NCBI GenBank assembly: GCA_039980135.1
Contig: JBDXCV010000003.1
Span: 248,001 to 312,000 of the forward strand
From: Alphaproteobacteria bacterium
GTDB lineage: Bacteria > Pseudomonadota > Alphaproteobacteria > UBA6615
Direction of reading: 5' to 3'
DNA: 64,000 nt
The translations under genes were made by a program, and so were the position numbers. Positions 12,698 through 16,771 of this stretch are shown here, in pieces (the first letter of the stretch is position 1; each line of letters begins with the position of its first letter). A model generated the notes under the pieces. The model ran no database searches and was not told the origin of the DNA. It saw only the letters and a list, made by a program, of their open reading frames with translations.

Positions 12698-14946
12698 TGA
12701 GCGATTCCAACAACAAGTGGATCGGCGAAAACACGATCCGTCCCGACGGCGCCGACAAGGTGACCGGACGCGCAGCCTTCGCGGCCGACACATCCATGCC
12801 CGGCATGATCTGGGGCAAGGTGCTGCGCAGCCCGCACGCCCATGCCGTAATCAAAAGCATCGACACGTCGAAGGCCGAGGCCCTGCCCGGCGTGAAGGCA
12901 GTGATGACCGCCGCCGACATCGTCGACTTCCCCGTCGACACGCCGGTGGCACTCGGCATTCAGGACATGCGCTGGATGTGCCGCAACGTGATGGCCCGCG
13001 AGAAGGCGCTGTTCCACGGCCACCCGGTCGCCGCCGTCGCGGCCATGACCGAGGCCATCGCGGCCGAGGCCTGCAAGCTCATCGAGGTGGACTACGACGT
13101 CCTGCCCCACGCGATTGAAATCGACGACGCGCTCGCCGACGATGCCCCCATCCTGCACGACTGGATGGAGTTCGACGGCAAGCCCTCGAACATCGCGGGC
13201 ACCATCGAGCACAGCAAGGGCGATGTCGAGGCCGGCTTCGCCGAGGCCGATGTGGTCATCGAGCGGGACTTCACGACCCGGCCGGTGCATCAGGGCTATA
13301 TCGAGCCCCATGCCTGCCTGGTGAGCGTCGCGTCCGACAACAAGACCACCATCTGGTCGTCGAGCCAGGGCCAGTTCATGGTCCGCGCCATGGTGGGGCT
13401 GCTCACGGGTCTCACCCAGAGCGACATCCGTGCGATCCCCGCCGAAATCGGCGGCGGCTTCGGCGGCAAGACCATCGTCTATCTCGAGCCGCTGGCGACC
13501 ATCCTGTCGAAGAAGTCCGGCCGGCCGGTGAAGATGACCATGACCCGCGAAGAGGTGATGCGCGCATCGGGACCCACGTCGGGCTCCAAGTCCACGATCA
13601 AGATCGGCGTCAAGAAGGACGGCACGATCACTGCGGCGGAAGGCCTCTACTGGCTGCAGGCCGGCGGACTGCCGGGCGCGCCCGTGCGCGGCGCGGTCGG
13701 CTGTGCGCTGGCGCCCTACGACATCCCCAACGGCCACACGCTGGGTTACGACGTGGTCTGCAACCGCTCCAAAGTCGCGGCCTATCGCGCCCCGGGTGCG
13801 CCCATCGGCGCCTTCGGCGTCGAATGCGTGCTCGACGAGCTGGCCGAGGAAATCGGCATGGATCCGCTGGATCTGCGGCTCAAGAACGCCGCGAAGGAAG
13901 GCACCGAAGCCGTCCACGGCCCGGTCTATCCGGTCATGGGTTATGTCGAATCCCTCACGTCGGCCAAGGCCCATGAGCATTACAACGCGCCGCTCGGCCC
14001 CAACCAGGGTCGCGGCGTGGCGAGTGGTTTCTGGTTCAACGCGGGCGGTGAATCCTCAGCGCAAGTGAACATCACCGAGGACGGCAATGTCGTCGTCACC
14101 ACCGGCCATCCGGATATCGGCGGCTCGCGCGCCGGCATCGCCAACATCTGCGCCGAGCTGCTCGGCATCGATTACAAGCGGATCTCGGTCCTGATCGGCG
14201 ACACGGCGACCATCGGCTTCTCGAACCTGACCGGCGGCAGCCGCGTCCTGTTCGCCTCGTCCATGGTGGTCACGGAATCGACCCGGACGGTCATCCGCAC
14301 CCTGTGCGAGCTGGCCGCCAAGATCTGGGATATCGACCCGGATGCGGTGACATGGGAAGACGGAGAGGCCCGCCCGGCCGGTGCCAACGCCGGCAAGTTC
14401 GACCCGCTCACCCTGGCCGAGCTGGCGGCCCGCGCCAACGAGACCGGCGGGCCCATCGGCGCCGGCGCCCAGGTCAACACGACGGGCGCGGAAGGCGGCT
14501 TCGGCACGCATATCTGTGATGTCGAGGTGGACCCCGAGCTGGGGATCGCCCGGGTGATCCGCTACACCGTGCTCATGGATGTGGGCCGGGCGGTCCATCC
14601 GGCCTATGTCGAGGGCCAGATGCAGGGCGGTGCTGCCCAGGCCATTGGTTGGGCCCTGAACGAGGAATACCTCTACGACAAGGACGGCAAGGTCGATAAT
14701 CCCGGCTTCCTGGATTACCGCATGCCCGTCGCGTCCGACCTGCCGATGATCGACACCCACATCATCGAGGTCCCGAACCCCAAGCACCCGCAAGGCGTGC
14801 GCGGGGTCGGCGAGGTGCCGCTGGTGCCCGGCCTGGCGGCCGTGCGCAACGCGGTCCACAACGCCACCGGCATCCGCTTCAACGACCTGCCGCTATCGCC
14901 GCCGCGCATCCTCGCGGCGCTGGATGTGCGCGAGGCTGCGGAGTAA
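12697..14946 (+). CDS. molybdenum hydroxylase, molybdopterin-binding large subunit
   Basis: This 749-residue catalytic subunit binds molybdopterin and hydroxylates its substrate with water-derived oxygen. Seen are EIGGGFGGKT near 250, the active-site loop AYRAPGAPIGAFG near 365, and the C-terminal GVRGVGEVPLVPG with the likely catalytic Glu. The loop is not the AYxCSFR of form I CO dehydrogenase nor the AYRGAGR of form II, so CO oxidation is unlikely. 4-hydroxybenzoyl-CoA reductase-like, nicotinate/isoquinoline-type or unknown N-heterocycle/aldehyde hydroxylases are alternatives. No maturation gene (CoxD/XdhC type) is seen nearby. Confidence 0.93.
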   Translation: MSDSNNKWIGENTIRPDGADKVTGRAAFAADTSMPGMIWGKVLRSPHAHAVIKSIDTSKAEALPGVKAVMTAADIVDFPVDTPVALGIQDMRWMCRNVMAREKALFHGHPVAAVAAMTEAIAAEACKLIEVDYDVLPHAIEIDDALADDAPILHDWMEFDGKPSNIAGTIEHSKGDVEAGFAEADVVIERDFTTRPVHQGYIEPHACLVSVASDNKTTIWSSSQGQFMVRAMVGLLTGLTQSDIRAIPAEIGGGFGGKTIVYLEPLATILSKKSGRPVKMTMTREEVMRASGPTSGSKSTIKIGVKKDGTITAAEGLYWLQAGGLPGAPVRGAVGCALAPYDIPNGHTLGYDVVCNRSKVAAYRAPGAPIGAFGVECVLDELAEEIGMDPLDLRLKNAAKEGTEAVHGPVYPVMGYVESLTSAKAHEHYNAPLGPNQGRGVASGFWFNAGGESSAQVNITEDGNVVVTTGHPDIGGSRAGIANICAELLGIDYKRISVLIGDTATIGFSNLTGGSRVLFASSMVVTESTRTVIRTLCELAAKIWDIDPDAVTWEDGEARPAGANAGKFDPLTLAELAARANETGGPIGAGAQVNTTGAEGGFGTHICDVEVDPELGIARVIRYTVLMDVGRAVHPAYVEGQMQGGAAQAIGWALNEEYLYDKDGKVDNPGFLDYRMPVASDLPMIDTHIIEVPNPKHPQGVRGVGEVPLVPGLAAVRNAVHNATGIRFNDLPLSPPRILAALDVREAAE

Positions 14947-14954
14947 AAAGAGGA

Positions 14955-15572
14955 ATGGTCAAGGTGTCTTTTGATTGGAGATGGCACAAAACCAGCCGAT
15001 TTTTTCGGAGCTATATTGTCAAGTTAACAATATTGGCTCCTGCGATTGGTTACCTGATCATACTCAACCAAGAGTTTTCTTCTTTTTTCACCCTTGTATT
15101 TGATTCAGGAGCTCCCGAAGATTCTTTGAATCGCGTTTATTATATTTTCTTTGGGCTGACCTTTATCGGTGTGTCTGCTGGAATTTTTGAAATGTTCTGC
15201 CCCGCAGAAGTAAAATTGAATCATACAGATAAAGGTTTTGTCGAGTCGGAAAGGCCAATAATTACACCAGCCAGACTTCGCAAGTATGCTGCAGATATTG
15301 GGATGGTTTTATCTAAGGAGGCCGGGCGAGACGGAGCAGAAAGATCTTCAACGACCGGAATATCTTTCTCTAGCTGGAGAAACCGAAACGAAGAAGAGAT
15401 AATCGATGTGCTCACAAAGCACTTCTACACACTGTCCGAATCTAACCGGAAAACCAGGATTGCCATGAGCCTGTTGTATGGACTCGGCTGGTTCTTCTTA
15501 CTTCTACCTTCGACGCTCACGTTTATCGACGTCGCGAATATTACTTACGTGAACCAATTTTCCGGGCAATAG
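14955..15572 (+). CDS. unrecognised membrane protein in AT-rich island
   Basis: This protein of up to 205 residues has hydrophobic helices at about 19-37, 62-83 and 172-195. A polar region of about 85 residues lies between the second and third, containing SSWRNRNEEEI. I do not recognise the family. Base composition changes abruptly from GC-rich in the hydroxylase gene to clearly AT-rich here. The ATG at 14955 touches its AGAGGA; the GTG at 14964 has a better 9-base spacing and may be the real start. It converges with the XRE operon, with only 6 bases between the stop codons, and may work with it. Confidence 0.7.
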   Translation: MVKVSFDWRWHKTSRFFRSYIVKLTILAPAIGYLIILNQEFSSFFTLVFDSGAPEDSLNRVYYIFFGLTFIGVSAGIFEMFCPAEVKLNHTDKGFVESERPIITPARLRKYAADIGMVLSKEAGRDGAERSSTTGISFSSWRNRNEEEIIDVLTKHFYTLSESNRKTRIAMSLLYGLGWFFLLLPSTLTFIDVANITYVNQFSGQ

Positions 15573-15578
15573 AAGACA

Positions 15579-16103
15579 CTATGCAATGTTTATCGGGTAT
15601 TCATTTTCCGCGATTTCTACGAACATTTGGAAAATAGATATTAATGCGTCTGACGGCAAATCCCGATACTTAAAATCATAGACGAAATCCCAAATCTTTT
15701 CTTCTGTTAGATCCAAATCTCTGCCGCAGTAGACGGTCAGGTTTGAAAGCGCCACTCGTATGGCCAATGCTTCGTTGGCAAGAACCGGGGGGCCAAACGG
15801 ATTTCCATCTTCGCCGGAATATAGAGGTTTCTCACGAATAATCCATTTTACGAGGAACGCAGACCGCTTAATTGCATCTGAAAGGTCGGCGCGTGGGTCT
15901 TCAAGATGATAAGCTTTGAACCTTGCGACGTCGTCATAGGCACTTACCACAACGACGTACAACCGCGACCAATCAACAGTTAAAGGTGCCTCGGTTTCAC
16001 TCTCATATTCGTCGACGAAGTTCTGAACAATTTCTCCCAAGTCTTGAAACCGGGACGCCATCTGCTCTTCGGAGAATAAGTACTCCGTTTCATCGTCATG
16101 CAT
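15579..16103 (-). CDS. unrecognised acidic protein, last gene of the XRE operon
   Basis: The 174-residue protein has a strongly acidic N-terminus (many Asp/Glu in the first 45 residues) followed by mixed helical segments such as SAFLVKWIIREKPL, NEALAIRVALSNL and ALISIFQMFVEIAENE. No signal peptide, membrane helix or catalytic motif was recognised. It starts 16 bases after the small basic protein gene and is in the same orientation as the XRE gene, so a three-gene transcript is likely. The acidic/basic pairing with the upstream protein recalls toxin-antitoxin or effector-immunity pairs, but nothing in the sequence proves it. Confidence 0.72.
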   Translation of the reverse strand: MHDDETEYLFSEEQMASRFQDLGEIVQNFVDEYESETEAPLTVDWSRLYVVVVSAYDDVARFKAYHLEDPRADLSDAIKRSAFLVKWIIREKPLYSGEDGNPFGPPVLANEALAIRVALSNLTVYCGRDLDLTEEKIWDFVYDFKYRDLPSDALISIFQMFVEIAENEYPINIA

Positions 16104-16119
16104 GGAATGTGCTTAGCCG

Positions 16120-16341
16120 CTAAGGTCGCTCAAACGAAGATTTTCTAAACCGTGCAACAGCCGATAGATACTTCTTCGTAAAGTTCGGACCAATTCGCTT
16201 ATCTGCGGCTATGAGTTTCCCGCTATCGTAAGGCTCGTCACTATTACGCTTTCGCGCATGCGCGATGTGATAGAGATCACCCTCTCGATCAGAGAGACTC
16301 CCGTACAATTCCGCTAGTTGCTCTCTACTTTTTCTCGACAT
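16120..16341 (-). CDS. unrecognised small basic protein, overlaps the XRE gene
   Basis: The 73-residue protein is rich in Lys/Arg, particularly in the last 35 residues (ADKRIGPNFTKKYLSAV, then RFRKSSFERP). The ATG at 16341 lies inside the end of the XRE gene, with GAGGAA about 10 bases upstream; a TTG six codons earlier is an alternative. The 17-base overlap with the XRE reading frame suggests coupled translation. No family was recognised. The composition would suit nucleic-acid binding or a small ribonuclease-like protein, but no catalytic residues can be assigned. Confidence 0.62.
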   Translation of the reverse strand: MSRKSREQLAELYGSLSDREGDLYHIAHARKRNSDEPYDSGKLIAADKRIGPNFTKKYLSAVARFRKSSFERP

Positions 16342-16555
16342 CTTCTGAGACTTCCTCAATCGAAACTTTTCGTTTCAGCTCCCCTGAGAGCGCAGCCACT
16401 AAACGGACAACAGAGAGTTCCTGAACTCTCTTCCCAGTTTCAGCTTTGCTAACAGTTGCACGATCAACTTCAGCCTTTCTCGCCATCTGATTAACGGAAA
16501 GTTTTGCTTCCAATCTCAACTCTTTCAGGAGTTTGTTGCACGTCTTGAGCGCCAT
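16325..16555 (-). CDS. XRE-family helix-turn-helix regulator
   Basis: The 76-residue protein is essentially a single XRE/Cro-type HTH domain: LLKELRLEAKLSVNQMARKA, then VDRATVSKAETGK as the recognition helix region, then a final helix and a short charged tail. Length is typical of stand-alone antitoxin-like or phage-type repressors. It is the first gene of a three-gene operon. The 10-bp repeat array and TTGACA promoter upstream are the obvious candidates for its own binding sites. Low GC matches the rest of the island. Confidence 0.85.
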   Translation of the reverse strand: MALKTCNKLLKELRLEAKLSVNQMARKAEVDRATVSKAETGKRVQELSVVRLVAALSGELKRKVSIEEVSEDVEKK

Positions 16556-16604
16556 TTCGGAAAAACCAGTGCGTACTTATCCACGACATTCTCATTCCAA
16601 TAAC

Positions 16605-16633
16605 AATTGTGACCAACTTTCTACTGATGTCAA
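16605..16633 (-). promoter_or_regulatory. candidate sigma-70 promoter of the XRE operon
   Basis: On the minus strand a perfect TTGACA (16633-16628) is followed after 17 bases by ACAATT (16610-16605). Transcription would begin near 16598, about 43 bases before the XRE start codon. The -35 box shares its first three bases with the last unit of the 10-bp repeat array. Confidence 0.5.
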
Positions 16634-16680
16634 CCACTATCAGCAACTATCAGCAACCATCAGCAACCATCAGCAAGACT
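16631..16680. repeat. five tandem 10-bp direct repeats upstream of the XRE operon
   Basis: Five consecutive 10-base units read CAACCACTAT, CAGCAACTAT, CAGCAACCAT, CAGCAACCAT and CAGCAAGACT. The middle three differ by at most one base, and the outer two are degenerate. The period is one turn of DNA, so identical sites would face the same side of the helix. The array directly adjoins the -35 box of the XRE promoter and ends 48 bases before the pnp terminator stem. An operator array is the likeliest reading; a simple slippage repeat is the alternative. Confidence 0.8.
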
Positions 16681-16727
16681 CGGCTGCTATGAGATAAGCT
16701 TGGCGCTAGTCTGTTTAGAAATGGAGA

Positions 16728-16765
16728 AATCAGCCGACCACCATCTATTGTGGGGCCGGCTGATT
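16728..16765 (-). terminator. terminator hairpin after pnp
   Basis: AATCAGCCG (16728-16736) and CGGCTGATT (16757-16765) form a perfect nine-pair stem 7 bases after the pnp stop codon. On the minus strand it is followed by a T-rich stretch (TCTCCATTTC) rather than a pure T run. It would end the nusA-infB-pnp transcript ahead of the XRE promoter. Confidence 0.6.
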
Positions 16766-16771
16766 AGCCTG

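Follow-up and report, generated by a model that had tools for sequence, protein, structure and literature searches.

We identified an AT-rich block of four genes flanked by a molybdenum hydroxylase gene and by pnp in the window (the whole stretch of DNA analysed, 64 kb), which was acquired horizontally into a variable cargo slot that holds phage-defence candidates elsewhere in the family. Sequence comparisons indicate that one of its products belongs to a real, unnamed family of three-helix membrane proteins recurring in and beside defence systems. Because this family recurs in or beside anti-virus systems, the island probably forms a compact cassette of the defence or toxin-antitoxin type with hitherto undescribed parts, and we tentatively favour reading it as an exchangeable defence-type cassette that combines an XRE-controlled gene pair with a membrane effector.

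The island (14947..16771, no strand assigned) is bounded by the stop codons of the hydroxylase gene and pnp, encloses four ORFs and is present once in the genome. Its GC content is 0.452, whereas the window averages 0.634 (sd 0.035, 1825-bp windows), and it forms the lowest-GC 1825-bp window in the 64 kb (starting at 14942). GC3 is 0.45–0.49 in all four island genes versus 0.84–0.89 in the flanking genes, which are 64–67% GC. A forward-strand gene for a membrane protein converges on three reverse-strand genes (encoding an XRE regulator, a small basic protein and an acidic protein), with the stop codons of the membrane and acidic-protein genes 6 bp apart and the XRE and small-protein genes overlapping by 17 bp; all four reading frames are unbroken, with little space between them. 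The ORF list showed no mobility genes in the island, none of the island proteins contains a known catalytic motif, and Pfam, NCBIfam, PHROGs and PADLOC offered no credible match for the three non-XRE proteins. Searches of the island proteins against PADLOC-DB 2.0.0 gave nothing beyond generic HTH hits for the XRE protein, and no relatives turned up when viral contigs were scanned with island-related protein queries. These results agree with an earlier sequence-only reading, which had placed four ORFs at these coordinates and strands, within a low-GC block of about 1.8 kb between the hydroxylase gene and pnp that is foreign in composition (here by both GC and GC3) and free of mobility genes; it had grouped the XRE, overlapping small basic and acidic proteins into one operon converging within 6 bases on the membrane gene, and had found the three non-XRE proteins unrecognisable. 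Rfam and tRNA scans of the 64-kb window gave no match, which leaves no tRNA or catalogued RNA gene as a local attachment site. A probable pnp terminator (16728..16765, reverse strand), a 12-bp inverted repeat following pnp, is unlike the terminator of the relatives.

The same junction in related genomes indicates how this block arrived. We searched the flanking DNA in 24 genomes of the family, of which seven, including this genome (G000), had both flanking genes adjacent on one contig; the remaining relatives were uninformative because these genes were not side by side or a contig ended there. The junction is empty in three of the seven (G018, G019 and G021), consisting of ~100 bp with one bidirectional terminator, and filled in the other four (G000, G022, G003 and G006) by 1.5–1.8 kb of cargo that is different in each. 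The G006 cargo includes DUF5343 and HEPN_Swt1 genes (PADLOC PDC-M34A, E 7e-75, with PDC-M34B, 2e-69), that of G022 includes a PDC-M36A-like protein (2e-35, PADLOC) and that of G003 contains a NUDIX gene and a 193-aa orphan; all three are unrelated to the window island. Since relatives have empty or differently filled junctions, the island is not ancestral: the sequence-only reading had looked to relatives for an empty junction, and had allowed that the region might be present in all of them, and three genomes decide for the former. Though PDC-M34AB and PDC-M36A fill the identical slot in G006 and G022, neither is related in sequence to the four proteins of the island. The arrangement resembles the core defence hotspots of Pseudomonas aeruginosa, in which varied defence cargoes lie between the same conserved genes (PMC10250203), in that different cargoes occupy one conserved gene pair in related genomes; the slot described here differs in its much smaller size (1.5–1.8 kb), in its flanking genes (pnp and the hydroxylase) and in belonging to an alphaproteobacterial-type family.

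The membrane protein (P0001, 205 aa; 14955..15572, forward strand) is a candidate effector without a library match, and its family was confirmed by shuffle z-scores. A hydropathy scan and a structural model place hydrophobic helices at ~19–39, 60–86 and 169–199, in support of the 205-residue three-helix protein proposed from sequence. GTG 14964 is better spaced from GAGGA (14950–14954) than ATG 14955, so the protein may start three codons later. Relatives occur on Rhizobium, Sinorhizobium, Bradyrhizobium and Vibrio plasmids, in a B. erythrophlei genome and in four more genomes from the class. Seven of the eight relatives tested scored z 20–31 against P0001 (400 shuffles) and the most distant (L060) z 5.7, while two unrelated membrane proteins used as controls scored about 0; residues invariant across six members include W10, S19, T25, P29, G32, Y33, G67, P83, K87 and R107. 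Phage records held no relative of the membrane protein. Its weak model (pLDDT 61) fits no known effector fold, with nothing above Z 6.9 in a fold search. A promoter scan found no promoter of its own for the gene, which may be transcribed on the hydroxylase transcript.

Defence genes adjoin the membrane family at four of its nine other loci (raw count). At L061 (genome G176), an operon encodes a CTD9 protein, MC5 and an SMC-type ATPase (LmuB, 1.5e-43), and the membrane-protein gene follows 6 bp behind as the last gene. Set against the ABC-3C system architecture (PMC10586767), the CTD9 protein (160 aa, CTD at 46–159) has ~45 residues ahead of its CTD and thus lacks the usual effector domain, for which role the membrane protein is the natural candidate. 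While the G176 operon thereby links the family to ABC-3C/Lamassu systems through its terminal gene and an effector-slot protein devoid of an effector domain, the window island has no SMC/Rad50-type ATPase (LmuB), middle component or CTD protein in Pfam and PADLOC searches. We also note this stretch (L061 3363–7004) as a candidate split-effector ABC-3C variant in which the three-helix protein is the fourth gene.

Other members of the family have quite different neighbours. The relative on pRL11 (L044) lies 153 bp downstream of a GmrSD/type IV restriction enzyme, a type of enzyme that the island lacks. That at L052 is divergent from genes for DUF5343 and DUF4145-like proteins (a DUF5343-HEPN pair), and a PDC-M34A-like gene adjoins it. 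At L046 the relative, an HTH gene and two orphans make up a tightly spaced operon beside a plasmid BsuBI/PstI R-M system. At L047 a 607-aa orphan takes the upstream position of the L044 GmrSD enzyme, but is unrelated to it. No recognisable defence neighbour was present at L045, L058, L059 or L060. If these proteins are effectors, the family is one used in turn by unrelated sensing systems, and its lack from current profile libraries means that it would be overlooked by defence finders. As a separate observation, orphans of 339, 441 and 607 aa upstream of membrane relatives (L046 888–3225; L047 2952–4775) have no Pfam match and are possible partners in unrecognised systems.

The remaining three genes show the anatomy of a self-regulated operon. 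The XRE (Cro/C1-type helix-turn-helix) regulator (76 aa; 16325..16555, reverse strand) matched Pfam HTH_31 (3.5e-9) and HTH_3 (6.9e-8) above cut-off. Its operon is preceded by a sigma-70-like promoter, TTGACA-16-CACAAT (16606..16633, reverse strand), assigned by consensus only (10/12 match). Directly upstream of the −35 box is a tandem TTGCTGATRG array (10 bp x 3.8; 16637..16676, reverse strand; TRF score 69), presumed to be the XRE operator; it is unique in the genome, with 0 expected in window shuffles, and a CTGAT-N10-ATCAG inverted repeat spans its junction with the −35 box. Such a control region is typical of XRE operons that regulate themselves, as this one may do, and in anatomy alone (an XRE gene, its 17-bp overlap with the next gene, a promoter with a unique array) the operon resembles those of type II toxin-antitoxin systems. 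The small basic protein (73 aa, pI 9.9; 16120..16341, reverse strand) has a GAGGAAG ribosome site and is an orphan with no credible relative. It matched no solved structure by sequence, and phage records gave chance-level rows at most for it and the acidic protein. A PIN hint (E 0.15, far short of cut-off) was discounted, as were nine putative relatives (L069–L077) with chance-level values of E 0.01–0.09 in 372 genomes; the two of these that were read (L069 and L070) had no matching neighbourhood.

The acidic protein (P0002, 174 aa, pI 4.2, charge −20; 15579..16103, reverse strand) has two distant family members, L049 (171 aa) and L063 (202 aa). L049 was a weak match to P0002 (E 0.0035, 385 genomes) and led to L063, on an Azospirillum plasmid. 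Since L063 was not picked by similarity to P0002, and P0002 scored 88 against it versus 30 ± 5 for shuffles (z 12, 0/2000), we regard this family as real; a profile of L049 and L063 likewise gave P0002 25.2 bits versus 9.0 for the best of 5000 shuffles. Residues D58, R61, K63, H66, K79, K86, W87, P93 and N110 are kept, the conserved polar positions forming DxxRxKxxH, KxxxxxxKW and LxN motifs. Beyond R61-X4-H66 itself, a form of the RX4-6H motif that is invariant in the three members, nothing pointed to a HEPN RNase: no HEPN profile matched, and the comparison with one HEPN toxin gave a Z of only 4.0 at rmsd 11. A gene for a 73–78-aa protein precedes the larger gene at all three known loci; at L049 and L063 it is acidic and overlaps its neighbour by 4 nt, and the small proteins of these two loci are mutually related (z 8.3) and unrelated to the basic 73-aa protein (z 0.03 and 2.0). 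The pairs at L049 1354–2087 and L063 2639–3477 (73–78 aa with 171–202 aa) have no Pfam family and are candidate toxin-antitoxin pairs, which makes this family and its changing small partner a second lead to an undescribed toxin-antitoxin pair.

How these genes work together can be read in several ways. In the cassette that we tentatively favour, the XRE protein would most likely act on the 10-bp repeat array at the promoter to repress the operon that encodes it, the small basic and 174-aa proteins would form a toxin-antitoxin-like or sensing pair, and the 205-aa protein, given the systems to which its relatives belong, would most likely act as a membrane effector that damages or depolarises the inner membrane on activation, with the two halves acting together. 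The variable slot with its defence candidates, the neighbours of the membrane family, the 73–78-aa partners and the unique promoter repeat lend this defence or toxin-antitoxin reading partial support. The sequence-only reading had likewise recognised a toxin-antitoxin, effector-immunity or phage-defence pattern, which the slot and the membrane family's neighbours strengthen; its tentative placing of the membrane protein in the same system from composition and adjacency, which would make a unit of the four genes, gained no support. At none of the nine other membrane-family loci does a relative of the 174-aa or 73-aa protein lie alongside, and neither of the two other loci of the 174-aa family adjoins the membrane family, so the co-occurrence of the four genes that the sequence-only reading had proposed to check in relatives has no example at these loci. 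For this reason a pair of independent cargo pieces, an XRE-regulated toxin-antitoxin-like operon and a solo membrane effector or accessory protein sharing a slot and not a mechanism, is nearly as likely as a single system; we put it at roughly one chance in three. The convergent halves are separately transcribed and the membrane family is found with many different partners, as two pieces would suggest, but uniform GC3 and the exact filling of one junction point to arrival as a single block, and with so few homologues the missing co-occurrence carries little weight. A bolder form of the single system seems to us unlikely: all four genes would serve abortive infection, with a new XRE/small basic/174-aa sensing pair triggering a plug-in membrane effector whose family is shared with ABC-3C and also lies beside restriction-type systems.

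Two further readings leave the membrane gene aside or give the island no present function. A phd/doc-type system, in which the 174-aa protein would be a toxin with the Doc fold, its antitoxin either the XRE or the basic protein, and the membrane gene a bystander, would account for the fold matches of the P0002 single-sequence model, among which P1 Doc entries are the top three by VIA-align (Z 9.0, 8.8 and 7.4, covering ~120 of 124 residues; next match Z 6.1), and for the phd/doc-like order in relatives, where the small gene overlaps the larger; the island also has its own regulator and an operator-like array. These matches are a weak hint of a Doc-like fold in a model of pLDDT 64.5, for which Foldseek found nothing significant, and helical models often reach a Z of 9. 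By sequence, P0002 matched no solved structure and was rejected as a Doc relative (hhalign probability 0.4%, pairwise z −1.6 to 2.0), and the Fic/Doc motif HxFx[DAE][GA]N[KG]R is absent from P0002, L049 and L063 while present in four control Doc proteins. The island has no Phd-like antitoxin and has three genes instead of two. We consider this reading improbable. Prophage remnants often contain XRE genes together with small orphan genes, and the lack of any phage structural gene or integrase in the island could fit a non-defence mobile-element remnant, such as a prophage regulator with accessory genes. That such a remnant would retain four intact, tightly packed frames in a slot carrying defence candidates in relatives makes this the more improbable still, as does the lack of relatives of the small or acidic protein on phage, plasmid and viral contigs, L063 excepted.

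In this family the junction of pnp and the hydroxylase gene offers a very small and clean defence slot, whose unknown cargo can be tested gene by gene. Two bidirectional terminator hairpins bracket the cargo in G022 (L031 339–362 and 1943–1968) and in G006 (L033 308–335 and 1684–1707), versus one copy at the empty sites; the hairpin core is ACGGCCCC..GGGGCCGT, and both copies are identical in G022. Two such hairpins in G003 (L032 945–966 and 1728–1757) bracket the 193-aa gene. In G000 the exact pattern has just two occurrences, and it is missing from the window island. Cassettes may enter by recombination at these terminators. Elsewhere in the window, the second-lowest GC stretch spans 118–1942, at 0.548 over 1825 bp.
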